Positions 3,825 to 36,947 of a stretch of DNA of 40,370 bases are shown here, in pieces. The stretch covers positions 1-40,370 of IMG/VR virus record IMGVR_UViG_3300046804_000438; one strand, given 5' to 3'. This DNA is from a virus. How positions within the stretch are numbered: position 1 is the first letter of the stretch; each line of letters begins with the position of its first letter. A program made the position numbers and the translations under genes. A model generated the notes under the pieces. That model was not told the DNA's origin. It did not search any database and saw nothing but the letters and a program-made list of their open reading frames with translations.

Positions 3825-3842
3825 TTATATATCTCCTATTAT

Positions 3843-3850
3843 TATTTATC
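3843..3850 (-). promoter_or_regulatory. Late-type promoter box for the 537-residue fibre
   Basis: GATAAATA on the minus strand, followed by AATAATAGGAGATATATAA and the ATG at 3824. It lies in the 26-base gap after the collagen-like gene, so this fibre may have its own late transcript. Confidence 0.55.
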
Positions 3851-4834: not shown

Positions 4835-4843
4835 CTATTATCC

Positions 4844-6805
4844 TTACAATGTGAAACTACTAGTAATCCACCAGTAGCAGAAGCCACCTCTATCTCTATA
4901 TGAGGTAACCTTTATAGCTTCCCATTGCATCATGGTGTATGGAGGACCGTCCCATAAACCAACAACGAAAGCAGCAGGTGTATCATTGATAATAGTTAGT
5001 TCAATACCAGCTCTAGGTGGTTCAGGTAAGTCTACACTATGAGTACCGTTATTACTATACCCATCTTGTTCTACCACATAAATTACATTGTAGTCTGAGA
5101 AAGTAGGAGTGAACGGTGTATTTTCAGTTTGTCCCCACAAGACCAAGTCTAATTGTCCTGTAGTATTCATCGCCCAATCACCGTTCTGATTAGATACATT
5201 AATCTGATTGTCTCTACCATTGACTTTTAGTGTAGTCATTGCGGAACTAATATTTACATTACCTGGATCAGTTCCTGAAGGTGAAGTTAATGCAATTGTT
5301 AAGTCAGCACCTGATATTTCTTGAATCGCAATTCCGTAACCTGGAATTGAAATACTGCCACTATAGTCAGTAAACTCCCCGTTTCCGTATATTAATAACT
5401 TTGTACCAGTGATAGCTGTCAACGGTGCTGTCGGTGGTGTGAAGTTAGCTGTGTAAACAGCAGTACCTTTCACAAATCTAAAGTTAGAAATTTGTGTACC
5501 ATGACAACCGTAACCTACTGCTCTACCAACTAATACAGATTCGTTACAAGGGAATTCATTATAATTATTATCAACATCACCTGAACTTGCAGTAATCTTA
5601 TTACCATCTATGTATAATCTAACTTTGCCTGCATTTCTAACAAATGCAATGTGATGCCAGGTATCAACAGTGATAATACCATATACTTGAAAGTAACCAC
5701 CCATCCATGCGCCACCGTTAATACCGTTGAAGATACCCATAGCAGCGGTACCAGTCAGAATACTCAAACCGTTCGCATTGTTATTAGTACCGAACATAGG
5801 GGCATAGCCACTAGTAAAGTCAGTACTAGAAAATTTCATATAGGCTTCAACTGTAAAGTCATCATATGCTCCTACCCAGAAATCACTACTAGCTGACACT
5901 ACTAGACAGCGACCGTTGTCAAACTGTATACTCTGTGACAGTCCGGTTGGGTTAGTAACAGGAGACTCATATATATAAGTTGTCGCGCCGCCCACTTCTG
6001 ACACACCTTTGCCCACGTGTGCCATGTATGGAGTATATGCACTACTATCTACTGGTATACTAAGATTAGGATCCACATACAAACCTAATTGATTTGATGC
6101 AGGAGTATCAATATAGTAATAGTTGTTATTCAACTCTGTTGTTGTATTGATGTTAGTAATCTTAACTTTTGAACCAGTATACAATCCATGGTCAGTTAAT
6201 GTAGTAACTGTAGTTCCCATTGCACCTAGTGTAATATCAGTGATATCAAATGAAAGACCAGTGTATCCGGGTTCAGTTGTAATAATAGTGTTTGGTGGTA
6301 ATGTCACATTGCCATTACTACCCAATACCCAATCATTATTAGCTAGGCCTGCTTGTCTAGTTCTAAAGACAATATCAGTATCATCAGCTGCCTTAACATA
6401 TAAGTTAGGACCATCATCAATCGTAGATCCGTTAGTCAAAGTTAATATGCCGTTGCTACCAAACTGCCATGTATTTGTAGTACTACCATCATCAGTTTTG
6501 ATTTGCAAGTTTGCACTAGATGCAGGATGAATGTCAGCATTACCTGTACTAGGGTTAGTAAATACAACGCCAGTTGGTAGTGTTACATTACCATTGGCCG
6601 CTACAGTTAATACCTTTAGACCATTAACAAGTCTAGTATGCTCAGGGCTTGCTAGATATGGTAATGAGTTCCAATGACTAGTACCGTCGCCCATCTTGAT
6701 TTTATTATTAGTAATATCAAGACCGGGTTCGCCGTCAGCTAATATTGGATTGATGCGAGACCAGTTACTAGCCGTGTCTCGTCTTAGTTGAATTTTATTT
6801 GCCAT
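4844..6805 (-). CDS. Tail fibre with Mtd_N-like, AHGL-type and LamG-like modules
   Basis: A 653-residue fibre. Residues 1-50 are an Mtd_N-like module (KIQLRRDTASNW, ILADGEPGLD). Repeats of the form W-x-F/L-G-S-N-G-x-[LV]-T-L follow at about 113-123 and 159-170. Residues about 192-260 hold a T-x-H-G-L-x-x-G-x-x-V module like those in the 1813-residue protein. Residues about 290-480 form a LamG/concanavalin-type jelly roll (DDFTVEAYMKF, DTWHHIAFVR, VRLYIDGNKI, ISNFRFVKGTAVY, LLIYGNG), a sugar-binding fold common in fibres of aquatic T4-like phages. The C-terminus is a small beta-rich cap ending near WWITSS. The ribosome site GGTGGAG lies inside the upstream gene's final DGGGA codons. Confidence 0.88.
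   Translation of the reverse strand: MANKIQLRRDTASNWSRINPILADGEPGLDITNNKIKMGDGTSHWNSLPYLASPEHTRLVNGLKVLTVAANGNVTLPTGVVFTNPSTGNADIHPASSANLQIKTDDGSTTNTWQFGSNGILTLTNGSTIDDGPNLYVKAADDTDIVFRTRQAGLANNDWVLGSNGNVTLPPNTIITTEPGYTGLSFDITDITLGAMGTTVTTLTDHGLYTGSKVKITNINTTTELNNNYYYIDTPASNQLGLYVDPNLSIPVDSSAYTPYMAHVGKGVSEVGGATTYIYESPVTNPTGLSQSIQFDNGRCLVVSASSDFWVGAYDDFTVEAYMKFSSTDFTSGYAPMFGTNNNANGLSILTGTAAMGIFNGINGGAWMGGYFQVYGIITVDTWHHIAFVRNAGKVRLYIDGNKITASSGDVDNNYNEFPCNESVLVGRAVGYGCHGTQISNFRFVKGTAVYTANFTPPTAPLTAITGTKLLIYGNGEFTDYSGSISIPGYGIAIQEISGADLTIALTSPSGTDPGNVNISSAMTTLKVNGRDNQINVSNQNGDWAMNTTGQLDLVLWGQTENTPFTPTFSDYNVIYVVEQDGYSNNGTHSVDLPEPPRAGIELTIINDTPAAFVVGLWDGPPYTMMQWEAIKVTSYRDRGGFCYWWITSSFTL
6777..6796. 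repeat. 20-base direct repeat shared by two fibre gene starts (copy 2)
   Basis: Identical to 3796-3815, in the same position relative to the fibre start codon. Confidence 0.8.
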
Positions 6806-6808
6806 TGT

Positions 6809-8650
6809 TTATGCTCCACCGCCATCTAAGTTATATTGATTTACTTCAGTAAGTCTGTTGCCACCATCGAATGATGCATCTGCTACACCATGTCTTGTTG
6901 AACTAAAGCCGCCGTCTGCAAATGCTACATCGACTTCGATATCATAATGAGCCATTGCACCACCACCATCTAAGTTGATGTTTCGTTGTACATACGCTGT
7001 CTGTTGCTTAGTCCCGTCAGGGAATTTCAACTCACCTTTGTTAGTAAATCTAAACTGATAGGTATCTTCGTCTGTGTTGATAACAACATCTTTTTCAGCA
7101 TCGATAACAATGTTATATCTACCTTGTGCAACATTATCTTGTTGTCCAGTGACACTACCAGCGTTTTGTGTATATAGAGCAGTAGCATTTCCTCCTAACC
7201 TCAATGAATCGGACACCGAGTTTTGGCCGTCAACTGCAATATTCAAGTTTTTAATGTATGTTCTTAATGCACCGATATCTTGGTCTGCACCAAATCCGAT
7301 ATAATAGTCATTATTTGTATTAAGTGTTTCATCTAATGTCAGTGTGTCTAATACAATATCTGAGGTATCCATTGTCTCTAACATAATGTTAGGACTGTTA
7401 TTAGGATCATATGTAAATCTTACACGATAAGTTCCGGGCCCGGGTATATTCCATCCAGTACTGGTAAAATTATTTGGTGCAGAAATCTCTGGGGTAAACC
7501 AGTTATACTGAACTGCGATTCTAGTTGAATTAGAATCTTCCCAATGCCATTGAGGTTGTGTGCCTTGTTCAAATACACATAAACCAAAATCGCTTTGTTC
7601 TGAATTTATCTCCATATCAACCGTGACAGTCACTTTAGTTGTACCACTAATAGAGAAATTAGTTCTGACTGGATAACTGATATTATTTTCTCCGGCATCA
7701 CCACTGAAGAACACACCTTGAGATGTCTGGCCGGCGTGTGCTAATGTTCCTGGCTCATAATCTAAGAAATCCGGTAATGTACTAAATGAACCTGTACCGA
7801 TAATGCTAGTTGAGCCACCACCTAATACAGAGGAACCGTAAGCGTCAATAATGTCACCACCTTCTGGTAATGTTAAATTACCTGATGGGTCAAACAACCA
7901 CTCTTTTGCGCCACCGTTTTCATTTACACTAACTTTTAACGGAGAATTGTTGTTACTACCGATGACCACATAACCTTCACCGTTCTGTAAGTTTAAGAAA
8001 CCAGTGCCATCAGCATATACTGTATTTCCTTCGAATGACAAATCACCAGTGTTAGCATTTCCGCCGCCACCTGACGGGTCTTGGTTTTCCCACTTCTCTT
8101 GACTGCTGTTCCAAGTTAAAACTTGTCCGTTGCTTGGTCCATCTAACTGAACATCATCTAAACCTTCTAATGCTGATGAGCCACCACCGTTAAATTCACT
8201 TTCAATTTCTCCTGCACCACAACGAACTTTGAATGGGATTTCAGTCCAATCTCCGCTAGTTGAAGGATCAATTTGTGTGCCCTCTGGTGCTGCGAACATT
8301 ACTGTACTATAAGTAACTGCTTCACCTGTATAACCTGCACCGCCTGTAACCACATCAATGCCATCAATATAGCCGTCATCATCTAATTCTGCAATAGCGT
8401 AAGTGGCAGCAGTCCAACCGTTTATTGGACTATTACCTTGAATAATAGTGTAATATGTGTATCCGTCGATGACTACTGGTGTACCAGTCCATGTAGCTGT
8501 TTGGTCTTCAGTATCATCTACCTCAATCGCAACACTAGTACCAGCTCTAGTTACACCTGGAATAACTAGTTTGCCCTGCGCACTAGTATCAATTAGTACA
8601 CCATTGATGCTAAGTGCAGGGCTTTGAATTTCAAAAGGTTTCATTGTCAT
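6809..8650 (-). CDS. Tail fibre / virion adhesin
   Basis: A 613-residue virion protein, recognised by composition and shared modules rather than one domain. The first 140 residues are beta-rich, with a DGYIDGIDVVTGGAGYTG segment. A LDDVQLDGPSNGQVLTWNSS motif (about 165-185), widespread in phage fibres, precedes a Gly-rich linker. A WLFDPSGNLTLPEGGDI repeat follows and is echoed in the gene at 8666-11353. Residues about 300-475 look like a jelly-roll domain (YRVRFTYDPN, YYIGFGAD). The C-terminus carries two NLDGGGA motifs, one ending the protein; similar DGG-rich ends occur in fibres of cyanophage-type viruses. ATG at 8650 follows AGGAAAAAATAAAA; a second ATG two codons later is possible. Confidence 0.78.
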   Translation of the reverse strand: MTMKPFEIQSPALSINGVLIDTSAQGKLVIPGVTRAGTSVAIEVDDTEDQTATWTGTPVVIDGYTYYTIIQGNSPINGWTAATYAIAELDDDGYIDGIDVVTGGAGYTGEAVTYSTVMFAAPEGTQIDPSTSGDWTEIPFKVRCGAGEIESEFNGGGSSALEGLDDVQLDGPSNGQVLTWNSSQEKWENQDPSGGGGNANTGDLSFEGNTVYADGTGFLNLQNGEGYVVIGSNNNSPLKVSVNENGGAKEWLFDPSGNLTLPEGGDIIDAYGSSVLGGGSTSIIGTGSFSTLPDFLDYEPGTLAHAGQTSQGVFFSGDAGENNISYPVRTNFSISGTTKVTVTVDMEINSEQSDFGLCVFEQGTQPQWHWEDSNSTRIAVQYNWFTPEISAPNNFTSTGWNIPGPGTYRVRFTYDPNNSPNIMLETMDTSDIVLDTLTLDETLNTNNDYYIGFGADQDIGALRTYIKNLNIAVDGQNSVSDSLRLGGNATALYTQNAGSVTGQQDNVAQGRYNIVIDAEKDVVINTDEDTYQFRFTNKGELKFPDGTKQQTAYVQRNINLDGGGAMAHYDIEVDVAFADGGFSSTRHGVADASFDGGNRLTEVNQYNLDGGGA

Positions 8651-8665
8651 TTTTATTTTTTCCTA

Positions 8666-11353
8666 TTAGTATAGTGTTGCTGAAAAAATTTCAGTACATG
8701 TTGATAGAACTGATACTGAATTCATTGTGCTTGTTGGTCTGCAAATAATTTCAACTCTATTGATAGATGAATTCCATCGGGTAGATAATGTTACTAATGG
8801 GTTAGCACTTGTGTAAACTAAACCATATGCACTACCTGACACTGTATTATTTCGTATGCTCTTTGCAACTATCATTTCACAACTTTGTGTATCCGTATCA
8901 GATTGACCATCTTCCACGCCTTCGATGTTGAACAACAACTTTAGTGTTTGGAAATTAGCAGTGCCTGTATAGACTACTGTATCCATATTAGGGTTACATG
9001 TTACATAGCCACCACTTCGTTGAATTACACCACTAGAATAGTCAACATTACCGTTAATAGTAATGCCACTGAATGAAGGTGTGTCACTTGAATTCAATGA
9101 TTGATTGAATGGGTTGCCGCCGCTGCCACCTAATACAGTAACGCCGTTGCTATCAACGATATCACCATTTACCGGTAAGTGCAATACGCCTGCGTTGTCA
9201 AAGTTCCATGTGTTTTCAGCACCACTGAAGTCGGTTGTTAGCTGTATGTTTGCGGCACCGATGTTTACTTGTGTAGTCTTGCTACCAGTATCAACATCAT
9301 TGTTTATAAAATTGATGCCGACACCGCCACCTAGTGGGTTGTATACACGAACATTTAAGTCATTGCCTTCTTGTGCATGGATATGACCAGGGACAGTTAA
9401 TGTTCCAGATGTACCGAAGATCCAGTTTTCAGAACTATTGCTTCTTAATGTGTATCCGTCGCCGTTAGTGTAGAAACCTGCACCATTGCTATCACGCAAG
9501 TCTAGACTTGTTGTAGCTTGATTGTCTGTAGCAAATTTACCTGAATCTCCTGAACCAATCTTAGCACCGTTAGGGAATGTTAGCATACCATCATGACTAT
9601 ATTGCCATGTGTGAGAATTGGCACGAATATTAACGATACCGTTAGCGTCAAAATTGACTAATTCAGATGCTTGGTTACCAGCGTCGGTATCACTTGGTAA
9701 ATACAACCATGTATTACCATCTTGCGGGCTAATATAGATAGCGCCTCCGTTGGTATTTCGAATCCAAGTTCCTTCAAACCCAATATCACCGGTGTTTGTA
9801 CCACCACCTCCTAATGGACTAGACCATGACAAGTTACCTGCACCATCAGTCATTAATATTTGTCCACTGGATCCGCCGCCAATTTTAACGTTACCAACGT
9901 GACCCAAGTTAGCACCCACTGAATTAACAATATTAAAACCATCTAATGTAGGAGCAGGGCTTGCACCAGTTGATACCAGTGATCCGGTTACTGCAATGTT
10001 TCCGTTAACAGTAAATGTCTTAGTGCTGTTACTCATTACAGCAAATACATTATCTGAATAGAAACCGCCCATGCCGAATACAATATCGTTATGTGTTCCT
10101 ACACCATCTGTAGCAATAACTAAATTACCACCTTGACCATCAAATCCTACTTGACCTTTAACAAAGAAATAGCCATCACCGGGTCCAGTAATCGAATAGT
10201 TAATATCATTGAAGTTGTGACTAGTAAAGCCCATATCAGCCCAGCCACTAGAATCATTACCCTGGTCACCATATGCTACCCAATCACTACTACCATTCGG
10301 CGAACCGTTAATGATAACTGCTTGAATATATGTACCATATTCATTGTGCATCACTAATGTAGGTGCAACTAAATCAGATGTTTCAGCATAAGATCCTACA
10401 TATAATGTATGACTATCAACACCAGTCATATGTATGTTGCCATTGAATATGTGCTTGATGCCATTGGCATTTATATTACCAGCAACACCCAATCCACCAT
10501 CAGTTATCAATGCACCGTTAGATGACGTGGTTGACGCAGTAGTGTTACTTAAATGTAGAACATTGGCTTTATTTAATAATAAATCTGTATTGTCAGTTAA
10601 GTTAGCAATATCGGTTGGGATAGTTGGAATATCACCTAATGTAATATAATGACGACTATTCAATGAACTGTTTGATACATAATCATACGCAAGTAAATTT
10701 GTAGTAGTAATAAAATTCTGACTACCAACATATGTTTTTGTAGCATAATCATTTAATGTAGTAGACAATGCCGAACTAGTAATATATCCTTGACTAGTTA
10801 CATAATTCTCAGTTGCCAAACCAACAACGCTAGGAATACTTGGCTTGTTGTTCAAATCTTCATAGTTACCAGTACGACCTGCTGTAGAAATGGTCGGTAG
10901 ATATTCTAAATCATTGTAGTTACCTGAGGTAGCGACTAATGCTAAACTTGTAGAATCTATTTTACTTGCTAATGCGTTGTTTACGAATGTTTCCGTAGCT
11001 AAACCAGTAATGCTAGGAATAGTTGGCTTGTTAGTCAAGTCATTGTAGTTACCTGTAGTTGCTACGGTAGCAAAACTTGGCTTACCTGTAATATTACCCC
11101 ATGTAGCTTTGTTATCTACATATGTTGTATTAGCGTATGCTTGTAAGTTAGGCTTGTTTGTTAAGTCGTTGTAGTTGCCGCTGAAGCCGCCGCCACCTCC
11201 GCCTTGACCTAATGAAATACCGCCAGGTGTTACACCGTCACTAAGATACATTGAACCCGTATCTGGATTATAAAATATTGTTCCCGCTTGACCAACAAAT
11301 TCTGACGGCTCTTGTAAAACCAAGCCGGCTTTAATTTTCTTTGTATTCGACAC
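8666..11353 (-). CDS. Large tail fibre with GNYNDL repeats
   Basis: An 895-residue fibre. The N-terminus (KAGLVLQEP, GTIFYNPDTGSMYLSDG) resembles a common fibre attachment module. A Gly stretch (50-56) leads to GNY[NE]DL repeats at about residues 59, 101, 144 and 162, each followed by NKP or a variant, alternating with GLATE-x-[FY]-V segments; this pattern is typical of phage fibre shafts. Further on are several W-x-F-x-x-x-G-x-L-T-[FLV]-P repeats, including WNFDNAGVLHLPVNGDI, shared with the 613-residue fibre. The start is GTG at 11353, directly after the upstream stop (TAA-GTG), supported by AAAGGGGAG. The C-terminal 120 residues (Cys/Thr-rich beta strands) are probably the receptor-binding tip, by inference. 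Confidence 0.85.
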   Translation of the reverse strand: MSNTKKIKAGLVLQEPSEFVGQAGTIFYNPDTGSMYLSDGVTPGGISLGQGGGGGGFSGNYNDLTNKPNLQAYANTTYVDNKATWGNITGKPSFATVATTGNYNDLTNKPTIPSITGLATETFVNNALASKIDSTSLALVATSGNYNDLEYLPTISTAGRTGNYEDLNNKPSIPSVVGLATENYVTSQGYITSSALSTTLNDYATKTYVGSQNFITTTNLLAYDYVSNSSLNSRHYITLGDIPTIPTDIANLTDNTDLLLNKANVLHLSNTTASTTSSNGALITDGGLGVAGNINANGIKHIFNGNIHMTGVDSHTLYVGSYAETSDLVAPTLVMHNEYGTYIQAVIINGSPNGSSDWVAYGDQGNDSSGWADMGFTSHNFNDINYSITGPGDGYFFVKGQVGFDGQGGNLVIATDGVGTHNDIVFGMGGFYSDNVFAVMSNSTKTFTVNGNIAVTGSLVSTGASPAPTLDGFNIVNSVGANLGHVGNVKIGGGSSGQILMTDGAGNLSWSSPLGGGGTNTGDIGFEGTWIRNTNGGAIYISPQDGNTWLYLPSDTDAGNQASELVNFDANGIVNIRANSHTWQYSHDGMLTFPNGAKIGSGDSGKFATDNQATTSLDLRDSNGAGFYTNGDGYTLRSNSSENWIFGTSGTLTVPGHIHAQEGNDLNVRVYNPLGGGVGINFINNDVDTGSKTTQVNIGAANIQLTTDFSGAENTWNFDNAGVLHLPVNGDIVDSNGVTVLGGSGGNPFNQSLNSSDTPSFSGITINGNVDYSSGVIQRSGGYVTCNPNMDTVVYTGTANFQTLKLLFNIEGVEDGQSDTDTQSCEMIVAKSIRNNTVSGSAYGLVYTSANPLVTLSTRWNSSINRVEIICRPTSTMNSVSVLSTCTEIFSATLY

Positions 11354-15719: not shown

Positions 15720-16472
15720 TCAGACAGGATCAGGACGCTTTTCTAGCTTGAAACGCTTGCTAATCATATCACCAAACATCAATGCAAACAATGTATCCGT
15801 AGATTCTTCGTTAAAATCGATGAAATAATGACTAGAACAATAGTGATTATTCCAGTACCAAGCATTACGATGACGACCATCAGGAGATAACCATAGTCTA
15901 AAGCTATTGCTAGGAACAATCACAGTATCAGTACCTTTGTATCTGTCAATAAAGCGCCTCATGCTTTCTTTCCAGTTTTCATCAATACGCTTACTTTTCA
16001 AGTAAACACGATACTTATACTTGGGTTCTTTCACATAGTACTTTGTACCATGCGGAATAGTCTGGTCAATCTCAGTATAGTCAATTATAGCAATACCCGG
16101 GCCAATCTTTTCTAATGTTTTCAACAACTGTAAGTCATTACTAAAAACACCTGCTGTATTACCCTCTACACGGATCATCGCAAGTTTGTTCTTGCTATCT
16201 GTGTTGGTATTGCGCCATGTTATGAACCGTTCAATACTATCTAAATCGATGCTATCCAGTTCTTGTTGCATTTTAGTACCATGACGACCTTTCTTCAAAC
16301 GCTCAATTACTTTGAGGTAATCTAAAAAGTTCTTAGCAAAGTATGTGCGATTCAAACCACTGAGGCTTATTCTCGCTCTATACTGATACTTACTATAATA
16401 CAATGTACTACGGTGGTCGACCAAGTCGATTCCCGTAGTTGCTTTATTCGGATGTGACTTCAATGATACCAT
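15720..16472 (-). CDS. Unknown 250-residue protein coupled to clpA
   Basis: A basic, aromatic-rich protein (many Tyr, Arg, Lys). I recognise no domain. Visible features are a YRARISLSGLNRTYFAKNFLDYL segment early on, a central beta/alpha region and a C-terminal YWNNHYCSSHYFIDFN stretch with closely spaced His, Cys and Asn. Its start lies inside the last codons of clpA (29-base overlap), implying coupled translation and similar amounts. That proximity makes a ClpA adaptor or substrate worth considering, but this is only inference from position. Confidence 0.75.
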   Translation of the reverse strand: MVSLKSHPNKATTGIDLVDHRSTLYYSKYQYRARISLSGLNRTYFAKNFLDYLKVIERLKKGRHGTKMQQELDSIDLDSIERFITWRNTNTDSKNKLAMIRVEGNTAGVFSNDLQLLKTLEKIGPGIAIIDYTEIDQTIPHGTKYYVKEPKYKYRVYLKSKRIDENWKESMRRFIDRYKGTDTVIVPSNSFRLWLSPDGRHRNAWYWNNHYCSSHYFIDFNEESTDTLFALMFGDMISKRFKLEKRPDPV

Positions 16473-18723
16473 CTTCTCCCACTTTCGCTACTAGTTTCTG
16501 AATTACATCAAACTCAATCTCACCACTAAGTCCGATGTGTACATTAATTGTAGCAGATTTGATTCGTTCAAACAAGATTTTCTTTGACAGAGGTACCCTA
16601 ATTAGTTCATCAATCTTACGACTTAACGGACGAGCACCCATCTTGCTATCATAACCTTTTTCAGCTAGATATTCAACAACTGGCTCACTCAAGTTCAATG
16701 TGATATCGTGTACAGACTTCAATGACTTCTTCAAATCTTCTGCAAATTTTACCACAATCTTCTTAATAGCAAGCATATCTAGTTTACCGAACTTACAAAT
16801 CAAGTCAATACGGTTTCTGAATTCTGGTTTAAAGAACTCTTTCAATGCTTTGTCATCTTCACCTGTGCGTTCGTTAGAACCGAAACCGATAACACTACGC
16901 TCACTATCAGCACTACCCAAGTTACTTGTCATAATGACAATTGCGTTCTTAGCATTGACAACTTTACCGTTACTACCAGTGATACGACCTTCGTCTAATA
17001 GTTGCAAGAAGATGTTGAAGATATCGGGGTGTGCCTTTTCAACTTCATCAAACAACAAGATAGCGTGTGGATTCTTGCTCAAGTCATTAATCAAGCGACC
17101 ACCACCTAAGTTACCTTCACCGAAGCCGACATAGCCAGGGGGAGCACCAATCAAACTACTGACACTGAACTTTTCACCGTATTCTGACATGTCATACTTC
17201 ATCAATGGCATGTCTAAGTTCTTACTCAATAGTTTAGCAAGTTCAGTTTTACCTGTACCTGTTGGTCCTAAGAATAAGAAACTAGCAAGAGGCTTAGTCT
17301 CGTTTCCAATGCCTGCGAATGAAACATAGACCCTTTCAAGTACTTTGTCAACTGTTTCTTCTTGACCATACAACTTATCTTTCACATTTGATTCTAAGTT
17401 AACAATACGGTCGCTACGGTCATCGCTCAACTTGTCAGCAGGAACGCCTGTATACTTTTCAACTTGCTCGTAGATAAGTTCTTTAGTAATGATTGCACCT
17501 TTATTTTCTGCTACACGCTGTTTAGCACATGCGGCATCTAACAAGTCAATACTTTTGTCTGGGTTCTTACGATCCTGAATGTAACGGGTTGCACCTTCAA
17601 CTGCGGCTTCAATCGCTTCGTCTGTGATTTCAACACTGTGGAAGTCATTCAATCGTGCTGATAGACCTTTTAGAATACGAACTGTACTTTCTTGACTTGG
17701 TTCGTCAACACTAACTTTGTAGAATCTACGCATCAACGCACGATCCTTTTCGAAGGATTCGTAGAATTCTTCCCATGTTGTGCTAGCGATAACTTTGATT
17801 GTGCCTTTAGTTAGTGCTGGCTTAATCATGTTACTAAAGTCAACACTACCATTCGTTGAACCACCTGCACCCTGCATAGTATGTGCTTCGTCAATGAATA
17901 GAATAGACTTCTTCTTAGTTGCAAGTGCTTCTAATACTGCTTTGACCTTTTCTTCAAAGTCGCCACGATACTTACTACCGGCTAACAATGAACCGATTTC
18001 AAGACTATACAATTCATGACCTTGTAAGAAGTCAGGAACTGACTTCTCAACAATCTTTTGTGCAAGACCTTCTGCAATAGCAGTCTTACCAACACCCGGG
18101 TCACCGACCATCAATACATTACTCTTGAATCGTTTTGCCAATACATTGACAATATCTTCAACTTCTTTTGTACGACCGATTACTGGTTCTAATCTATCTT
18201 CACGAGCCTGTGCTGTAAGATTAATTGTATATTCTTCCAACACTTCATCAGCTTGGTCTTCACTCATGCTTACTTCGTTGTGATTGCTCTTATAGTGTTT
18301 CTGCCAGAAGGGAACAAACTCAGTCTTTGAGAACCCATACTTCAATAGGAAGTAATGTGCGTGACTATTGGTTTCTGCTGAAATACTCAGGTACAAGTCA
18401 ATTGTAGTAATCATTTTACGACCAGTGAACATAACTTGTGTCACTGAACGGTTCATAACACGCTCTAAACTGTTAGTTTTGCGAGGTTGTACTTCTTGAC
18501 CTTGGTCTACATTTACCACGATAGATGTTAAACTATCCAAGTATGCACTAATATCACCCACTAGACCATCTACATTTGTACCGAATTGTTCGATACACTT
18601 CTTAAATGGTCCGTATGTTACTAATGCTAATAATAAATGCTCTACTGTGCAATATTGATGGTTGCGTTGTTTCGCCATCCCAATCGCTTGTTCGATGATG
18701 GATTCGATTTCTGGTGAATGCAC
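16444..18723 (-). CDS. clpA: ClpA-type AAA+ unfoldase
   Basis: 759 residues, almost exactly the length of E. coli ClpA. Order: Clp N-domain (about 1-135), first AAA+ module with Walker A GDPGVGKT (207-214), Walker B ILFIDEAH (274-281) and an arginine-rich motif (DRALMRRF, from 327), second module with Walker A GPTGTGKT (486-493), Walker B LLFDEVEKAH (556-565) and sensor-2 GARPL (696-700). An IGF tripeptide at 612-614, in the position of the ClpP-docking IGL/IGF loop, suggests it can dock to host ClpP; no clpP is seen in the window. No ClpB-type middle coiled-coil is present. The start is GTG at 18723 with AAAGGA upstream. The gene follows the J-protein gene by 24 bases. Confidence 0.95.
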   Translation of the reverse strand: MHSPEIESIIEQAIGMAKQRNHQYCTVEHLLLALVTYGPFKKCIEQFGTNVDGLVGDISAYLDSLTSIVVNVDQGQEVQPRKTNSLERVMNRSVTQVMFTGRKMITTIDLYLSISAETNSHAHYFLLKYGFSKTEFVPFWQKHYKSNHNEVSMSEDQADEVLEEYTINLTAQAREDRLEPVIGRTKEVEDIVNVLAKRFKSNVLMVGDPGVGKTAIAEGLAQKIVEKSVPDFLQGHELYSLEIGSLLAGSKYRGDFEEKVKAVLEALATKKKSILFIDEAHTMQGAGGSTNGSVDFSNMIKPALTKGTIKVIASTTWEEFYESFEKDRALMRRFYKVSVDEPSQESTVRILKGLSARLNDFHSVEITDEAIEAAVEGATRYIQDRKNPDKSIDLLDAACAKQRVAENKGAIITKELIYEQVEKYTGVPADKLSDDRSDRIVNLESNVKDKLYGQEETVDKVLERVYVSFAGIGNETKPLASFLFLGPTGTGKTELAKLLSKNLDMPLMKYDMSEYGEKFSVSSLIGAPPGYVGFGEGNLGGGRLINDLSKNPHAILLFDEVEKAHPDIFNIFLQLLDEGRITGSNGKVVNAKNAIVIMTSNLGSADSERSVIGFGSNERTGEDDKALKEFFKPEFRNRIDLICKFGKLDMLAIKKIVVKFAEDLKKSLKSVHDITLNLSEPVVEYLAEKGYDSKMGARPLSRKIDELIRVPLSKKILFERIKSATINVHIGLSGEIEFDVIQKLVAKVGEDGIIEVTSE

Positions 18724-28399: not shown

Positions 28400-29023
28400 T
28401 TAATGTCCTTGCAATAAATCTAATGCAATATGGTAATGATGTTTTCTATCTTCTAAACCAATTGTTCCGCCATTGATACGCTTTGTCAATGTAACAAAGT
28501 CATCTTTGTCGCAATAACTATTTAAGTTGTTGTTATCCCAGAACCAACCTGCACTACTTACAGCGCCTTCTGGAGTCTCTAAGTATGCTACAGTCTCGTC
28601 AACGCTGATTCCCAAATCGGCTGCGAAACGAGTATAGTTGTCTTTACCTGTCAATTGAATTAATCCACGACCACAGAACTTATAACCATCGCCTGATTCT
28701 TCTGGACCATTACCCATACGGTTAGCATAAACACGGTTAGCAATCTTCTCAGGCTTACGCTCGTATTGCTTTGCTAAATCTTCGTTAGGGAAATACTTCT
28801 TAAAAGTACCCATCAAACCTTTAGCACTGTAGTTCAAGTTCTCTTTAACAAAGTTAAAGCCACCTGATTCGTGTGCAGTCTGTGCTACGAAAGCGGCTGC
28901 ACGGTGCATATTATCATACATGTCATAGTATGTTGCTACTTCATGTAGTGGCTGTGCATATACTTCTAGCACAGAACGCTTTGTCTTTGGGCATAGTGCC
29001 TGTAATAAATCTACTGTAATCAT
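28400..29023 (-). CDS. GH19-type endolysin
   Basis: 207 residues, a single glycoside hydrolase family 19 (chitinase class I-like) domain. AHESGGF gives the catalytic Glu52, followed by KENLNYSAKGL with Glu61 and by GRGLIQLTGKDNY with Thr125; these correspond to the Glu-Glu-Thr set reported for the Salmonella phage SPN1S endolysin. Gram-negative phage lysins of this type cut peptidoglycan glycan strands. There is no N-terminal signal peptide or membrane anchor and no cell-wall-binding domain, so it would need a holin to reach the wall. AAGGAAATATT precedes the ATG. The gene sits among virion genes rather than next to the holin candidate. Confidence 0.92.
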   Translation of the reverse strand: MITVDLLQALCPKTKRSVLEVYAQPLHEVATYYDMYDNMHRAAAFVAQTAHESGGFNFVKENLNYSAKGLMGTFKKYFPNEDLAKQYERKPEKIANRVYANRMGNGPEESGDGYKFCGRGLIQLTGKDNYTRFAADLGISVDETVAYLETPEGAVSSAGWFWDNNNLNSYCDKDDFVTLTKRINGGTIGLEDRKHHYHIALDLLQGH

Positions 29024-29035
29024 AATATTTCCTTA

Positions 29036-32000
29036 TTATCCATAAACTGCTGTCATTGTATACCATTGGCTCAAACTTGTAGCGACAAACATTAATCTTG
29101 CGCCCGGGCCAAGAGTGAATGATGTATTTTGTGCTAGTCCGTCGATGATAGAACCTGATGTAGGATATACTTTGATGTTTGCGGATGCTGTATTAATAAT
29201 AATACATGTCATACCTGCTGATCCTGCCGGTAACATTACACCTTCATTAACTGATGGTGTTGATGTTGTCACAACGTTGATTTGTTTAGTCAATGCTGCC
29301 GCTGTACCTTGTGTTGCACCTGTAGCTGCGATGCCAACGCCTGCGCTGTGCATTACGAAACCACTAGCAGTGATGTTTGTAACACTACTGATACTACCAC
29401 TGATACTTAAGCCAGTCAATGTACCAACGCTAGTGATGTTAGGTTGTGCAGATGATGAAACTGTACTAGATGTATCAGCAGTACCTGCGCTTCCCACCTT
29501 ACTTACATTGCTACCGTTAATGCTTGTTAACAATGAACCGTTAGCACTAATATATGATGCATTCAAGTTACCACTGAAGTTCGCGGCACCGTTAGCATAT
29601 AAGTTAACACCTGATGAACCTACTGCTAAACTTAACAATGTACCAACACTAGTAATGTTAGGTTGACTTGATGCTGATACTGTACCAGCAGAACCTGTAG
29701 TGTTTTGATTCAATGTTGGTATTAAACTAGATGAAATAGTACCAGATGTAATTGCACTAGCATTCAATGAAGTTAAACCTGAACCAACACCAGTAAATGC
29801 ACCAGCAACGACAACACCTGTCGCAGTTAAATTACCACCGTAAGTAGCAGAACCTGTACTGATTAAGAACGGACGAATGTTCAATGATCCTGCACTAGAG
29901 TTCAATGTACCAGTTGGTGCAACTGCGGCTGTGAATACGAATGTTGTAGAGTTAGTTACACTTGTTACAGTGAACCATCCTGGGTTACCGCCAGCATTGA
30001 CGTTAGGTGGATTAGTACCGTTTGTCGTAATACCAGTCAATGTGAATTCTGTACCAACACTTGCACCGTGTGCTGTTGTAGTTACTACAGTAATTGTTGT
30101 ACCACTATATGATACACTTGAAATACCTACTAGTGTACTTGGTAAATTCAAGTTACCTACGTTAGCAGTACCTGCTACGCTCAATGCACCTGATGCTACT
30201 AAGTTAGAACCTGATACATTACCTGATACTGACAATAGTGTACCATTAATATCTCTAGTAGTAATGTTACCAACACTAGCATTACCAGTAACTGATAGTA
30301 TACCGTTAGTTACTAAGTTACCACCTGTAATGTTGCCAGTAGCAAACATGATACCGGACGATTTTACTACACCACCTTCAACGTTACCTGATACGAATAC
30401 GTGAGGTGCTCCTAAATTACCTGATAGATTAGCTTGACCGTTAGCATAGAAGATAGCATTACCGCTACCAAAGTTTGCGCCACCTGTTGTTCCTAAAACA
30501 CCTGTCATATTGACATTGTTCAAGTTAGCAGTGCCTGCTACATTCAAGTTAGAACTGATGTTAGCATTGCCTGAACTCATAAATGCGGCTTGTACATTAC
30601 CGCTTGCTGTAATGTGCATTACGGATGGGATATTACCCAACGATGCATCACCACCAACGACTAGTCTACCATTAAAGATACCAGAACCCTGTGATGTAAT
30701 CAAAGGTCGTACAGTTAATGTAGCACTTGCAAAGTTTAATGTTCCTGTAGGTGCTGCTGATGCAGTATATGTAAATGTAGTTGAGCTAGGTACTGTTGCA
30801 ACTAAGAATATACCATTAGGTGAGTTTGTACTAGCTGTTAAACCAGCTAATACAATTTCATTGCCTGCGGCCAAGCCATGTGCTGCTGTTGTAGTTACTG
30901 TAACAGTAGTTCCTGTGTATGTCACACTTGTTAGTGCGATAGATGCAGTCGGAGGGAAACTTAAATTGCCTACGTTAGCAGTTCCGTTTACTCTGATTGC
31001 CCCAGAGATGTTAGCATTACCAGTAGCAACAATGTGAGTCATACCCACATTACCGATATTCGCATTACCTCTTACATTTAGAATACCTAATGATTCGATG
31101 TTACCGTGTGTACTGTTACCTGAAATAGTTGCATCTGTTGTAACTTGTAACAAGTTAGCCGTATGTGTTCCGGTAACATTAGAATTTAATGCTGTAATCA
31201 ATCCGCCGGCTGCACTAATGTTTCCAGTAGAAACGATATGCATTACACTAGCAATGTTACCAATGTTTGCATTGGCTGCTACAGTGAATGATGCGGCTGC
31301 ATTAGTAAAGTTAACGTTACCAGTACCTGCAATATGCAATGTATTCAATTGACCAGTTACATTACTGTTCAATGCTTGCAACAGACCGGTGTTAGCATAC
31401 AAGTTACCTGTTGTTGCCAAGTTACCTGCATTGATTGTGTTGGCATTTGCAACGTTAGCAAACAATGCACCACCGTTTGCGTATAAGTTACCAGTAGCAA
31501 CAACATGCAATGTACCGACGTTAGCAACGTTAGCATTACCTGATACACTCAACGCACCACTAGCAGAAACATTACCTGAAGCAACAACGTGTTGAGTTCC
31601 AATGTTACCTGTGTTAGCATTACCTGATACACTCAATACACCCGGTGTAGTTAAGTTACCACCGGTTAATGTGTTAGTTGCAACTAAATTAGCAGCTTGA
31701 ATGTTTGCGGATGATGTTACATTACCTACACTTGATACTTCACCCAATGTAGCTTCACCTGTTACACTGAATGTTGCACCTGTGAAGCTAGCGGCACCAG
31801 ATGCAGCCACATGTAATAGTGTAGCCTGACCAGTTACTGTGTGATTCAACGCTCTGATTAAACCACTATTAGCAAAGATGTTACCTGACAATACATTACC
31901 GGCATTAACTACGTTAGCGTTTGCTACATTAGACAATAATGTACCTGTTGATGCATTGATATCACCTGTAGCAACAATGTTACGGGTTCCAATGTTGCCT

Positions 32001-34477
32001 GCATTAGCGTTACCAGTTACGGATAGAACACCCGATGCTACTAAGTTAGCACCTGAAATGTTACCTGATGCAACAACAGTTACACCTGTCATTGTTGTAG
32101 CGCCGATATTACCGACGTTAGCGTTACCTGTTACACTCAATGTACCCGGGGTAGACAAGTTACCACCAGTCAATGTGTTGATAGCTACTAAGTTGTTAGC
32201 GTTAACGTTTGCTGTATTAGCGTTGATGTTACCTGTTGCTGTAATAGTACCAGGTGTTAATAAGTTACCGACGTTCGCTGTACCTGCAACGTTTGCACCG
32301 CCTGTAGATACAATACTTGCGCCTTGCACACCACTTGTTGTTACAAAGTTACCACCAATACTGATGTTAGTGCCTGCACCACCTTGAATGTTGCCAGTAG
32401 CAACAATAATACCTGTGCTTAAGTTACCAGTACTTGCATTACCTGTTACTGATAGAATACCACCAGTACTGATGTTAGCACCGTCTAAGTTACCACGGGC
32501 TGATAAGTCTAGTGTTGTTAATTTTGTTGTTACATTGACATTAGCAGTTGTTACATTACCACCACTGATATCAGTACCGTTGATGTTTGCGCCACCTGCC
32601 AAGTTAGCAGTACCCAATACTCTGATGATACCGCTAGCAAGTAAGTTAGCACCCGATACATTACCTGATACAGAAACTACTGCACCGTTCAATGCTGTTG
32701 TTGTAATGTTACCTACACTTGCGTTACCTTGAACTTGTAAGAAACCGTTTGTAACTAAGTTAGCACCTCTGATAGTACCTGTTGCGCTAACAGTACCTAG
32801 TGCTGTCAATACTTGTGTACCACCGAATGTTCCAGTGTAAGTACTTGCAGTTACAATTGTAAATGATGTTGCTGATGGAACTGTTTCAATTGCCCAGTTA
32901 CCGTTTGGTTCACTTGTAGGACCTGCTAATGTAGGACCAGTGATACCACTCAATGTTACTTCATTACCAACTGCTAGTCCGTGTGCGGCTGCTGTGTTAA
33001 CTGTAATTCTTGTACCTGCATATGTAATAGGATTACTTGCAGCCAATGCAATTGTTCTACTTGCTGATTCTACACGACCGACGTTTGCTGCCACTGTAGC
33101 AAACATAATGCCGGCAGCAGTTAAGTTACCACTCGTTACATTACCTGTAATAGACAACAAACTTGTTGTTCTATTATATGACATGCCGCTATGGGTGTTT
33201 GCTAGACCACCGTCGTTGAATACAACATATGTGTTTTGTCCAGGGATACTAATGTTACCACTGATGTTACCACTGATGTTACCGTTAACATTACCTGATA
33301 CATTACCAGTGATGTTACCTGATACATTACCTAACAAGTTACCACTCATCGTAGTAGCAGTGAATGTAGTGACACTCATGTTAGGTGCAGTCAAGTTACC
33401 AGTTAATGTGATGTTGCCACCTTCCATTGTACCTGATACTTGTAGACCGTCTAGTAGACCAACTTTACGAATGTTAGGTTGATTACTTGCATCTGCTGTG
33501 ATTTGTGCTGTTACATAAGTTGCGCTGATGTTACCGATGTTGGCGTTACCATCAACGTTCAATAATAATAGATTACCTAGACTTGTGATGTTTGGTTGAG
33601 CACTTGCTGTAACTGTCACTGAGTTTGCGGCTGTACCAACTAAGTTACCGATAACATTACCGGTTACATTACCTAGCAAGTTACCTGCAACTGTAGGAGC
33701 ATTTAATGTTCCTGCAACTTGCAATGATGTTAATGTACCGACTGATGTAATGTTAGGCTGAGCACTAGCACTAACTGTACTTGCGTTAGCTGCTGGGCCT
33801 AAGAATGTACCTTGGAAATAGTTCGCACTGACTAAGTTACCACCGTCAACGTTTCGTGCTGTAATGTTACCCACAACACTGAATGCACCAGTCAATGATA
33901 GTGTCGTGCCTGTATATACTAAGTTAGAAGCAGCACCGACGTTGCCTCTGTTATTGAATAGAATCTGTGTATTAGAACCAGGGGCAGTAAATGTACCTGA
34001 AATTTGTCCGCCAACAACGTTACCTGCAAATGAACTTGCAGTGATGTTACCTGTTACTGCTAAGTTAGTTAGTGTACCGACGCTAGTGATATATGGCTGA
34101 GCACCTGTTCTGATTGTACCACTTAAGTTAGTTGCTGAAACGTTACCAGTAGTAACGTTAGGGCTCAATGTAATTACGAATGGAGTATTGTAGCTACTTA
34201 CTGTAGCCGTGTTACTAGTACCTGCAACGCCGGCAGCTACAAACAATCCAGGACCAGTCTGAATTGTGATATTTGATATGTTTGCTGATACAACTACGTT
34301 ACCGGTTGTTCTATTTTGAGTTAAACCGGGTCCTGTTTGCAATGATTGAACACCTGTATTAAGTGTTGCTGAATACAAATCAGTGAAGTTATTCTGTACC
34401 TTGGCAAAGGCTGCTCGTATAGGATCGGCAGCTGGATCGTTAGGGAATGCGCCGAAGTCAATTATTTGTTGTGCCAT
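29036..34477 (-). CDS. Giant 1813-residue repeat protein, probable long tail fibre
   Basis: The N-terminus (FPNDPAADPIRAAFAKVQNNF) is a virion-docking type segment. From about residue 65 to 1700 the protein is built of Gly/Asn/Thr/Val/Ala-rich repeats: about 17 copies of G-[NT]-A-x-x-G-N-[ILV], alternating with VxATGN and SGANLVASG-like units, consistent with a beta-helical shaft. Three domains of about 85-100 residues with the motif T-[AT]-A-H-G-x-x-x-G-x-E interrupt it (coding roughly 32800-33060, 30690-30960 and 29860-30130). The last 100 residues are a cap-like domain ending WYTMTAVYG. Its composition differs sharply from its neighbours, with almost no Cys or Trp. A late box at 34500-34507 drives it; AAGGTG is 10 bases from ATG. 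No signal peptide. Confidence 0.85.
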   Translation of the reverse strand: MAQQIIDFGAFPNDPAADPIRAAFAKVQNNFTDLYSATLNTGVQSLQTGPGLTQNRTTGNVVVSANISNITIQTGPGLFVAAGVAGTSNTATVSSYNTPFVITLSPNVTTGNVSATNLSGTIRTGAQPYITSVGTLTNLAVTGNITASSFAGNVVGGQISGTFTAPGSNTQILFNNRGNVGAASNLVYTGTTLSLTGAFSVVGNITARNVDGGNLVSANYFQGTFLGPAANASTVSASAQPNITSVGTLTSLQVAGTLNAPTVAGNLLGNVTGNVIGNLVGTAANSVTVTASAQPNITSLGNLLLLNVDGNANIGNISATYVTAQITADASNQPNIRKVGLLDGLQVSGTMEGGNITLTGNLTAPNMSVTTFTATTMSGNLLGNVSGNITGNVSGNVNGNISGNISGNISIPGQNTYVVFNDGGLANTHSGMSYNRTTSLLSITGNVTSGNLTAAGIMFATVAANVGRVESASRTIALAASNPITYAGTRITVNTAAAHGLAVGNEVTLSGITGPTLAGPTSEPNGNWAIETVPSATSFTIVTASTYTGTFGGTQVLTALGTVSATGTIRGANLVTNGFLQVQGNASVGNITTTALNGAVVSVSGNVSGANLLASGIIRVLGTANLAGGANINGTDISGGNVTTANVNVTTKLTTLDLSARGNLDGANISTGGILSVTGNASTGNLSTGIIVATGNIQGGAGTNISIGGNFVTTSGVQGASIVSTGGANVAGTANVGNLLTPGTITATGNINANTANVNANNLVAINTLTGGNLSTPGTLSVTGNANVGNIGATTMTGVTVVASGNISGANLVASGVLSVTGNANAGNIGTRNIVATGDINASTGTLLSNVANANVVNAGNVLSGNIFANSGLIRALNHTVTGQATLLHVAASGAASFTGATFSVTGEATLGEVSSVGNVTSSANIQAANLVATNTLTGGNLTTPGVLSVSGNANTGNIGTQHVVASGNVSASGALSVSGNANVANVGTLHVVATGNLYANGGALFANVANANTINAGNLATTGNLYANTGLLQALNSNVTGQLNTLHIAGTGNVNFTNAAASFTVAANANIGNIASVMHIVSTGNISAAGGLITALNSNVTGTHTANLLQVTTDATISGNSTHGNIESLGILNVRGNANIGNVGMTHIVATGNANISGAIRVNGTANVGNLSFPPTASIALTSVTYTGTTVTVTTTAAHGLAAGNEIVLAGLTASTNSPNGIFLVATVPSSTTFTYTASAAPTGTLNFASATLTVRPLITSQGSGIFNGRLVVGGDASLGNIPSVMHITASGNVQAAFMSSGNANISSNLNVAGTANLNNVNMTGVLGTTGGANFGSGNAIFYANGQANLSGNLGAPHVFVSGNVEGGVVKSSGIMFATGNITGGNLVTNGILSVTGNASVGNITTRDINGTLLSVSGNVSGSNLVASGALSVAGTANVGNLNLPSTLVGISSVSYSGTTITVVTTTAHGASVGTEFTLTGITTNGTNPPNVNAGGNPGWFTVTSVTNSTTFVFTAAVAPTGTLNSSAGSLNIRPFLISTGSATYGGNLTATGVVVAGAFTGVGSGLTSLNASAITSGTISSSLIPTLNQNTTGSAGTVSASSQPNITSVGTLLSLAVGSSGVNLYANGAANFSGNLNASYISANGSLLTSINGSNVSKVGSAGTADTSSTVSSSAQPNITSVGTLTGLSISGSISSVTNITASGFVMHSAGVGIAATGATQGTAAALTKQINVVTTSTPSVNEGVMLPAGSAGMTCIIINTASANIKVYPTSGSIIDGLAQNTSFTLGPGARLMFVATSLSQWYTMTAVYG
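29400..34100 (-). repeat. Dense coding repeats of the giant protein
   Basis: Short degenerate repeats on a theme of about 45-75 bases recur throughout, for example the GTTACCTGA-TACATTACC-like units, many near identical at 33250-33340 where six GNVSGN/GNISGN-type units run in tandem. Recombination between copies would keep frame and vary shaft length. Confidence 0.75.
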
Positions 34478-34574: not shown

Positions 34575-36947
34575 TTATTTGATTCCGCTTAACTTTTTCC
34601 AGTCGTTAATCATGTTACTTTCTGCAACACGAACGGGGTTACCGACTGCTTGTGAATGTTTGACACGGTGCATATCATTGCCCATTGACAACAATGCCTT
34701 CAATTTAGCCATTTCTTCATCTGGCTCGTTAGCATAGTTTTCTTCTACATGCTCATGGTCGCATCCGCATGGAGATTTACCGCATGCATCGCAAGCATCT
34801 TCACCTTCACGAACTTTTTCCATGTCTCCGTCATTGTCTAAATCAGCTTGTTCTTTGCCTTGAGCACGTGCTTTAGCTAGGTTACCAGTAAACATGTTAC
34901 CTTCTTCCATATCATCTTCTTCTAGTGAAGATGTATCTTTGTACTCTTTGTCGCCTAATTTGAATTCGCCACCTTGTTTAGTTTGAGCTAATTTACCTGT
35001 AAAAGCATTACCTTCATCAGTTTGTTCTTCTTCACCTGATTCTTCTTCTGAACCTTGCTCTTCACCTGATTCTTCTGAACCTTCTTCATCTTCGTAGTCT
35101 TGACCATGTTCTTCTTCACCACCATCTGCTGGTTCTAAAGTACCTGGTTGCTCACCACCTTGTTCTTGTCCTGGCTCGCCGCTTTGTTCAATGCCAGTCA
35201 TTTTCTTAATCAATGACATGATATCGTCATCTACATCAGCTACTTCTGGGCTAGCTTCTGGCTCTGTACCGTGACCTTCTGGCTCTTCACCATGTGCTGC
35301 CATTGGTGCACCATAGTTACTAGTTGGTTGCTCACTGCCACCGAATACGCCTAGACCAGCTTGACGCAATACTTGTAACAATTGCTGTGCATCTGCATCA
35401 CTAGCTGTTACTGATACTGAATCAGGTGAACCTTGTTGACCTTGGCTAGAAGATACAGTGATACCTTCAGTTAATAAACCATTAAGCTGCTTTTCCCAGC
35501 CTTCTACTTGAATATCTTTCATATCTGTACCTTCAAATGTTTTCTTAGGAGCTACTAAGTTCTTAATGAAGCTGCCTGCTTTTTGTGCACCAGAGATTGC
35601 TCTGTCTGTTGTTGCTTGAATTGGATCTACTTTCCATGGAGTAGGTTTCTGTGCTGGATCAACAGCAACAAACTTACTTGGCTTTGAATCCATACCATGT
35701 GTTGTGAAGTCTTGAATAGCACCTTCATCTGCAATTTTCTTCTTAGCGTGACCGTGCACCTTTAAGAATGCTTCTAGCTTCTCACTGCAATGACCAGTGT
35801 TAACAAAGTTTTCAATGTCATCTTGCAATTCAGCTAACATTTCTTGTGCTTCTGCTTGTGCTTCTTGTGACATTTCGTTGAAACTTAGGCTTTCTTCAAG
35901 TTTACCTTGTTTAACTAATTTAGCTTTAACTGCACCTGCTACACGTTCACCGGCTTCTTTACTACCGTATTCTTTAGCGGCTTTGTCAGCAATCTTTTTA
36001 AAGTTCTTACCTGGCTTACCTTCGTCTTTGCCTTCTTTCATTTGTTGACCGATGTTCAATGTACCTCTTTCAGAAGCGGTTTTCATTACTGATGCTGTCT
36101 GTGCATCTGCTGTGCCTACAACTTCACCTTCTGGGTCAATAATTTGACTTGCTCCTGGCATTGGCTTGATTGTTAATTCTTCTTCATCCAAACTTTCATT
36201 GGCTTGATATTGTGCTAATAATGCATTTGTGCCTTCTAATTGCTTTTGCATTTGTAGCATTGGGCTGTCACCATACTTTTGGTCAACTTGTTGTCTAAGT
36301 TGTTGCAATTGTTGTTTGAACTGTGGGTTAGCTTTAGCGAATGCATCAGCCTTAGCGTCAACTTGACTTTGTGCTCTGTGCAACTGAGAGAAAGAACTAC
36401 CACCTACGCCGCCACCGCCGGCTGCTGCACCGTACTCAGCACCATGTTGATTAACACCTGCTTGAGTTCCCATCATACCGCCTAATGCAGTAGCACCGAT
36501 TGCTGCCGCTGTACCAAGACTTGCTAATTTAGATTTCCAACCTTCTTCAAGCATTTCGTCTGTTACTTCAATGCCCTTAGACTCTAGGAAGTTACGGTAG
36601 TCTTGTTTGAATTTTACTTCTTTATCTTTTTCTTCAATGTATTCTTTTAGTGAATGCTTCTTTGAAACAGTACCAACCTTACCGCTTGGCTTTTTGCTAC
36701 CAAATGCGGAGCTTAATGCTGATGTATCAAACTTAGCACCTTCACCACCATCCTTCTTAGGACGACCACGACCCTTTTTAGGTTCGTCTTTCTTGGCAGT
36801 AGCTTCTTTATCTACTTTACCAACTCTATGTCCATACTGGTCACGAACGTCTTCCTTGCCGTAACTTGTACCATAAGTACCTTTATGAACTGTACCTTCT
36901 GCTTCTGAGATGGTATTAAATGATTGTAATAGGCTCCTGAAATCCAT
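34575..36947 (-). CDS. Large acidic virion/core-type protein with AT-hook-like and Cys/His motifs
   Basis: 790 residues, family unknown. In order: a Lys-rich start with GRGRPKK (59-65), an AT-hook-like DNA-binding motif; a hydrophobic Gly/Ala segment (about 141-160) that could be a membrane span or a collapsed helix; a Gln-rich coiled-coil region (about 195-250); several KxxxEYGSKEAGERVAGAVKAKL-like helical units; an extremely acidic Glu/Gly/Ser stretch (about 590-660); two GN[AM]FTG[KN]LA repeats; then a Cys/His cluster CxxC-x4-CxC-x-HxH (719-733) able to bind zinc. A calcium-loop-like DLDNDGDME lies just before it. The mix suggests an internal virion or prohead-core protein contacting DNA; this is inference. 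AAGGAAAC precedes the ATG. Confidence 0.75.
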   Translation of the reverse strand: MDFRSLLQSFNTISEAEGTVHKGTYGTSYGKEDVRDQYGHRVGKVDKEATAKKDEPKKGRGRPKKDGGEGAKFDTSALSSAFGSKKPSGKVGTVSKKHSLKEYIEEKDKEVKFKQDYRNFLESKGIEVTDEMLEEGWKSKLASLGTAAAIGATALGGMMGTQAGVNQHGAEYGAAAGGGGVGGSSFSQLHRAQSQVDAKADAFAKANPQFKQQLQQLRQQVDQKYGDSPMLQMQKQLEGTNALLAQYQANESLDEEELTIKPMPGASQIIDPEGEVVGTADAQTASVMKTASERGTLNIGQQMKEGKDEGKPGKNFKKIADKAAKEYGSKEAGERVAGAVKAKLVKQGKLEESLSFNEMSQEAQAEAQEMLAELQDDIENFVNTGHCSEKLEAFLKVHGHAKKKIADEGAIQDFTTHGMDSKPSKFVAVDPAQKPTPWKVDPIQATTDRAISGAQKAGSFIKNLVAPKKTFEGTDMKDIQVEGWEKQLNGLLTEGITVSSSQGQQGSPDSVSVTASDADAQQLLQVLRQAGLGVFGGSEQPTSNYGAPMAAHGEEPEGHGTEPEASPEVADVDDDIMSLIKKMTGIEQSGEPGQEQGGEQPGTLEPADGGEEEHGQDYEDEEGSEESGEEQGSEEESGEEEQTDEGNAFTGKLAQTKQGGEFKLGDKEYKDTSSLEEDDMEEGNMFTGNLAKARAQGKEQADLDNDGDMEKVREGEDACDACGKSPCGCDHEHVEENYANEPDEEMAKLKALLSMGNDMHRVKHSQAVGNPVRVAESNMINDWKKLSGIK

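Follow-up and report, generated by a model that had tools for sequence, protein, structure and literature searches.

How a phage tail fibre comes to carry several copies of one small domain along a repetitive shaft, and whether those copies were placed there recently or long ago, is the question raised by the gene P0001. The gene lies in an IMG/VR virus record of 40,370 bases, which was taken whole for the analysis and is referred to here as the window. A first-pass annotation of this DNA had proposed that the domain, termed AHG after its motif, is mobile and is copied between fibre shafts. The features needed to follow the argument are given below, where D1 to D4 are the AHG copies encoded in the window, addresses A to E are the fixed positions at which aligned orthologous fibres carry such domains, and L numbers denote related loci.

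29036 to 34477, minus strand: P0001, repeat-shaft tail fibre gene of 1813 residues with an ATG start (ORF calling; orthologues in the same gene order)
34142 to 34477, minus strand: N-terminal attachment region, residues 1 to 112 (matches to phrog_677 and phrog_8859)
32798 to 33049, minus strand: predicted AHG barrel D1 at address A, residues 477 to 560 (profile; among the 13 fibres compared, only in the window and L002)
31508 to 31636, minus strand: address C, empty in the window, residues about 948 to 990, occupied by two tandem LSVSGNAN shaft units (protein alignment; relatives carry an AHG cassette here)
30704 to 30946, minus strand: predicted AHG barrel D2 at address D, residues 1178 to 1258 (profile; modelled, with fold matches)
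29870 to 30136, minus strand: predicted AHG barrel D3 at address E, residues 1448 to 1536 (profile; missing in L014 and L017 to L020)
29039 to 29407, minus strand: C-terminal part, residues 1691 to 1813, the presumed tip (from its position; the end aligns in orthologues)
28400 to 29023, minus strand: lysozyme/chitinase-like endolysin beside the fibre (phrog_181, E = 2e-73; adjoins the fibre in 9 of 12 relatives)
6092 to 6247, minus strand: D4, a remote AHG relative in a 653-residue Mtd_N/laminin-G-type fibre, residues 187 to 238 (profile; sub-threshold E1_FCCH match; low-confidence model)

ORF calling bears out the annotated reading frame of 1813 residues on the minus strand, and its shaft is repetitive, with T, G, N, A and S abundant. 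The repeat unit G-[NT]-A-x-x-G-N had been counted about 17 times; the strict motif occurs 11 times and a looser form 15 times, and 300 shuffles of the same sequence gave a mean of 0.14 strict matches and a maximum of 2. Aromatic residues are indeed scarce, although the description "almost no" overstates the case, as F, W and Y together account for 70 of the 1813 residues (3.9%) and for 53 of the 1553 that lie outside the AHG domains. Six ORFs of 114 to 183 amino acids on the opposite strand to the fibre (window 29115 to 33482, plus strand) are probably by-products of its biased codons.

The N-terminal end offers a link to the virion. Residues 1 to 70 match phrog_677, "baseplate wedge tail fiber protein connector" (PHROGs, E = 1.8e-6), and the N-terminus also matches phrog_8859 (PHROGs, E = 4e-7); comparison of the same region with PDB sequences was uninformative, returning Kelch-like protein 17 (E = 0.11), a Bcl-2-like protein (E = 1.5) and T4 gp10 (E = 8.1). 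Residues 1693 to 1813 matched no PHROG, and the whole protein matched no family in Pfam, PHROGs or NCBIfam. Searches by tblastn with the whole fibre, with an AHG domain plus flank and with the N-terminal 232 residues found no relative in 50,697 phage records, perhaps on account of the low-complexity filter, which was on.

Gene order is consistent with the connector similarity in pointing to a baseplate-anchored fibre. The gene sits in a tail gene cluster, with a tail tube gene in the window and the order tail tube, E-rich protein, fibre, lysozyme and Ig-like protein common to its relatives. In the 12 relatives compared, the tail tube gene was seen in 9, the E-rich protein in 12, and the lysozyme and the Ig-like protein in 9 each, in loci with and without AHG domains alike, some contigs ending early. 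The window's tail tube protein matches phrog_13438, and its other genes include those for a ClpA-like ATPase (phrog_4871) and a DNA polymerase clamp loader (phrog_168). The source phage is uncultured and probably T4-like. The ATPase (759 amino acids, window 16444 to 18723, minus strand) matches its family at E = 1e-235, and the best 15 of 160 matching phage records are 39 to 41% identical to it. The Glu-rich neighbour of 790 amino acids (window 34575 to 36947, minus strand) is 54% identical to its L002 counterpart, whereas the tail tube and the lysozyme reach 91% and 94%.

All three AHG domains annotated within the shaft were recovered by the domain profile. Two of them strictly fit the proposed motif, T-x-A-H-G-x-x-x-G-x-E, whereas D1 has one extra residue between T and AHG. 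The likeness extends well beyond this short motif: D1, D2 and D3 are similar over about 80 residues, their pairwise identities are 46, 38 and 51%, and none of 500 shuffles reached the score of any pair. An AlphaFold model of D2, based on 27 aligned rows, folds as a six-stranded beta-barrel of its own, with pLDDT block means of 87 to 96 over model residues 21 to 90 and of 47 to 70 in the flanks. A confident barrel between less certain flanks suggests that the AHG segment constitutes a separate domain, in agreement with its original description as one.

Placing this domain among solved structures required a second look. Foldseek against the PDB gave no match for the D2 model at E 0.001, the best being Uba6 (E = 0.0025) and phi92 endosialidase (E = 0.0074). 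Structural alignment of the 1000 chains that Foldseek ranked highest placed the FCCH region of Uba6 (7sol) at Z 10.0 (2.1 Å over 77 residues, 17% identity), phi92 endosialidase (4hiz) at Z 9.9 (2.1 Å over 81 residues, 26% identity) and the K1F endosialidase barrel, residues about 425 to 507, at Z 9.0 to 9.1 (3ju4 and 1v0e; 2.1 Å over 78 residues for 3ju4). Among solved structures, the D2 model is therefore predicted to come closest to the E1-enzyme FCCH half-domain and to the endosialidase barrels of phi92 and K1F. The phage T1 tail tube appears in the same list at Z 7.7, which indicates that the barrel fold is a common one.

Sequence profiles give a less uniform picture of family likeness. 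Single AHG copies matched DUF7382 (E = 0.0037), NPCBM_assoc (E = 0.0055), E1_FCCH (PF16190; E = 0.025) and End_beta_barrel (PF12195; E = 0.037) in Pfam, weak matches to mixed families that were each obtained with 1 or 2 of 12 copies (1 of 12 for both E1_FCCH and End_beta_barrel). The remote copy D4 fell below the gathering cut-off of E1_FCCH, and that family was missing among the matches listed for the whole of P0001 at E ≤ 1. The resemblance to E1_FCCH thus consists of the predicted fold and weak profile matches, with only the barrel in common and at 17% identity. A 12-row AHG profile run on PDB sequences put phi92 endosialidase on top (E = 0.12), with an HGLxxG motif; this protein was missing among the matches listed for the wider 27-row profile. 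The two endosialidases resemble P0001 in the barrel fold and as phage proteins of host contact, but their barrel belongs to an enzyme, whereas here several barrels are set in a repeat shaft, and identity is 18 to 26%. The PHROG matches are more consistent, with phrog_5838 found for 12 of 12 copies, phrog_529 for 9 and phrog_9998 for 8. Among predicted viral structures in BFVD, 20 entries matched at E ≤ 0.001, three of them named Synechococcus phage fibres (S-SM2, ACG-2014a and Syn30). From the PHROG and BFVD matches it follows that the AHG domain type is already widespread in virion proteins of cyanophages and other phages, which share the domain and differ from P0001 in backbone.

To place the copies in context, we scanned IMG/VR using the fibre itself and a four-fibre alignment as queries, and retained the best 80 of 107 relatives. 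The 1,758 ORFs of these 80 loci and the window, 81 loci in all, were searched with a profile built from 15 AHG copies. Of the 60 AHG domains detected, in 26 ORFs, 32 belong to 11 fibres of the P0001 family; the other 28 lie in 15 ORFs for a different protein. The latter is about 1,320 residues long when complete, has AHG-type domains near residues 510 to 585 and 645 to 706 in most copies, and is encoded in L024 (16340 to 20248), L025 (19009 to 22962) and 13 other loci. Within the fibre family there are three copies in the window, four in each of L002 to L006, one in L014 and two in each of L017 to L020, while in the complete fibres of L007, L021 and L022 the profile detected none. An AHG-like domain without the HG motif was considered for the L007 fibre, and profile comparison did not confirm it.

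When the orthologous fibres are aligned, these 0 to 4 copies per fibre fall at five fixed addresses. Address A is occupied in the window and L002 only, B in L003 to L006, C in L002, L003 to L006 and L017 to L020, D in all 11 AHG-bearing fibres, and E in the window and L002 to L006. Address C is empty in the window, L014, L015 and L016, and E in L014 and L017 to L020, so that four of the five addresses vary among AHG-bearing fibres. Occupancy was compiled by hand from the profile results and alignments; the sequences of L015 and L016 end ahead of addresses D and E, where both were counted as unknown. The backbone tree was built from the first 455 residues, a region without AHG domains, and holds 13 fibres, two of them nearly identical, the remaining loci being near-identical copies, fragments or remoter proteins (fragments in L008, L011 and L012; in L009, L010 and L013, fibres that diverge more strongly and gave no AHG hits; L023 is cut, and its start looks the same as that of L022). 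On this tree, addresses A, B and D require a minimum of one change each and E two. Address C requires at least four, a number to be read against a mean of 4.6 for random labels, with 44% of shuffles as low or lower. It is this pattern of occupancy at fixed addresses that is the newer part of our results, the domain type itself being widely known already; we found no earlier description of the pattern in the literature that was searched on phage FCCH domains and on shaft-repeat recombination in tail fibres.

If the AHG domain were a selfish-like element actively copied among fibre genes, copies within a phage clade should resemble one another. That three PHROG families, a different protein (28 hits in 15 ORFs) and the second fibre of the window all contain relatives of the domain, and that the flanks at addresses B to E are alike, would suit such an element. 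A tree of 24 of the 32 fibre copies (those of L006, L018 and L020 were left out as copies of L004, L017 and L019) nevertheless joins the copies of addresses A, C and E by address, with supports of 100, 100 and 99. Addresses B and D are unresolved in this tree: the L003 copy at B stands apart from those of L004 and L005, and the window copy at D is nearer to L014, L017 and L019 than to L002, with weak support (67). The L002 copy at C groups with L003 to L005 and not with L017 and L019 (69), against the backbone. For the same 24 copies the AU test did not reject monophyly by address (p = 0.265) and rejected grouping by phage clade (p = 3e-46), the clustering by genome that recent transfer would leave. 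This result led us to reject recent copying within one fibre and, with the grouping of the A, C and E copies by address, indicates that the duplications predate the split of these phages. The copies of the window are, moreover, mutually only 38 to 51% identical, and a pattern-limited scan with the address-E domain returned only five records, all already among the loci. An actively copied mobile domain is therefore very unlikely for these fibres. Of the mobility originally proposed, what stands is that whole domains come and go between orthologues; recent copying between sites or fibres finds no support. As judged from these sequences, the duplications are old, and the more recent change is in which addresses are occupied.

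The remote relative in the 653-residue fibre fits the same picture. It had been reported at about residues 192 to 260; the relative is real, at about residues 187 to 238, but remote, being only 20 to 33% identical to the fibre copies, which argues against recent transfer, and we see no sign of transfer between the two fibre genes of the window. A profile built without D4 recovered it at E = 7e-8, in a record with an identical 653-residue fibre. By single sequences, the D2-D4 pair is clear (0 of 500 shuffles reach its score), whereas the scores of D1-D4 (reached by 2 of 500) and D3-D4 (by 5) are weak, as is the single-sequence profile comparison (probability 34%, E = 0.0004); against E1_FCCH in Pfam, D4 scores 17.1 bits, under the gathering cut-off of 29.5 bits. 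Modelling D4 gave a low-confidence structure (pLDDT 64) whose top fold matches are those of D2; given this pLDDT and an alignment built of AHG domains, such a match is not independent evidence.

How occupancy might change can be followed at address C, where the window is without the domain that its closest full-length relative found (84% identical) carries. In the window, L014 and L015, a shaft unit takes the place of the cassette, ahead of an LSVxGNAN-type motif, and in the window a within-gene direct repeat of 93% over 30 nt is present at this address. L015 (empty) and L017 (with cassette) are sisters on the backbone tree with support of 98, and in DNA comparison each of the two tandem units of L015 matches the lone right-hand unit of L017. 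Similarly, both units of the window match the right-hand unit of L002; for the left one, two further L002 shaft units give matches just as good (E = 1e-7 each), so that its source is not fixed. Tandem units of this kind are the trace that recombination between shaft repeats would leave, a step which we infer from the alleles.

Occupancy could also differ because phages trade longer stretches of their fibre genes with one another, the barrels being mere passengers. Between the window and L002, silent divergence is raised at residues about 931 to 1260, which span the empty address C and D2 (60-codon pS 0.53 to 0.80); for D2 itself pS is 0.68, compared with 0.46 for the shaft on its right-hand side, yet values up to 0.64 are found in windows elsewhere. 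The gene is a mosaic, being 85 to 86% identical to L003 in two windows covering residues 601 to 690 and 55 to 71% identical beyond, and between L015 and L017 identity drops from 86% to 70% immediately to the left of address C. Silent divergence, this drop in identity and the mosaicism make longer-segment exchange a live alternative. No clear donor for the segment of the window is found among the sampled fibres, however, and the tandem copies of the neighbouring shaft unit in empty alleles point to local change; we regard exchange as possible but doubtful. Nothing points to a separate exchange of D1 or D3, as their pS to L002 (0.48 and 0.41) compares with 0.42 to 0.51 in neighbouring shaft.

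On balance, we favour the reading, held with modest confidence, that P0001 is a baseplate-anchored tail fibre with lateral, possibly glycan-binding barrels whose number changes by shaft-repeat recombination. Its N-terminus would tie the fibre to the baseplate, followed by a long Gly/Asn/Thr-rich repeat shaft into which the small AHG beta-barrels are set at fixed addresses, and occupancy would change as the similar shaft units flanking a cassette recombine. If the shaft is trimeric, each address could present three outward barrels; these may bind host-surface glycans, and their number might then tune reach and avidity. A shared fold alone shows no function. As the K1F endosialidase barrel holds a polysialic-acid site, at which changes of loop residues discriminate hosts according to the preprint PMC12632334, we lean by analogy towards lateral glycan binding over a role as mere spacer.

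The barrels might instead be conceived as purely structural, that is, as spacers, kinks or folding nuclei that interrupt and register a long trimeric shaft and bind nothing. The similar fold of the phage T1 tail tube (Z 7.7) is in keeping with this, as is the finding that a single H and a single G are all that stays invariant over 24 AHG copies in related fibres, which would suit a structural motif; a role in folding is suggested in PMC6116203 for the knob-like domains of pyocin fibres, which differ in kind. A range of 0 to 4 copies among orthologues would be odd, however, for a folding nucleus that is needed, and the polysialic-acid site described for the like-folded K1F barrel (PMC12632334) also speaks against it. 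A purely structural role is rather unlikely.

The variation described for host-recognition proteins of phages is, to our knowledge, mostly located at the tip or due to exchange of terminal domains. In the P0001 orthologues, by contrast, it is lateral domains inside the fibre, at set positions, that differ, and a shaft unit fills the place of a missing barrel. Domain shuffling as described for phage receptor-binding proteins (PMC10684548) is alike in that whole domains are swapped between close relatives, but the examples given there exchange C-terminal domains, whereas the P0001 family changes small in-shaft cassettes at fixed addresses. The family may thereby exemplify how phages remodel host-contacting parts, with barrels gained or lost one by one between relatives, and, as a single syntenic gene occurs naturally with 0 to 4 barrels, an adhesion role of lateral domains becomes directly testable. 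It could be speculated further that shaft-repeat recombination switches cassettes on and off, so that a population varies in the number and kind of glycan-binding pegs. We consider this unlikely as it stands; if true, host adhesion would be tuned by barrel copy number with the fibre tip unchanged.

The window holds a second putative fibre cluster (2211 to 11353, minus strand), which comprises two proteins with Mtd_N N-termini (537 and 653 amino acids), a collagen-like protein of 327 amino acids and proteins of 613 and 895 amino acids. The 653-residue fibre (window 4844 to 6805) recurs with 100% identity in a further IMG/VR record, L087. By contrast, the nearest full-length match found for the 1813-residue fibre is 84% identical, and the fragment L008 is 98% identical to it over residues 1 to 93.
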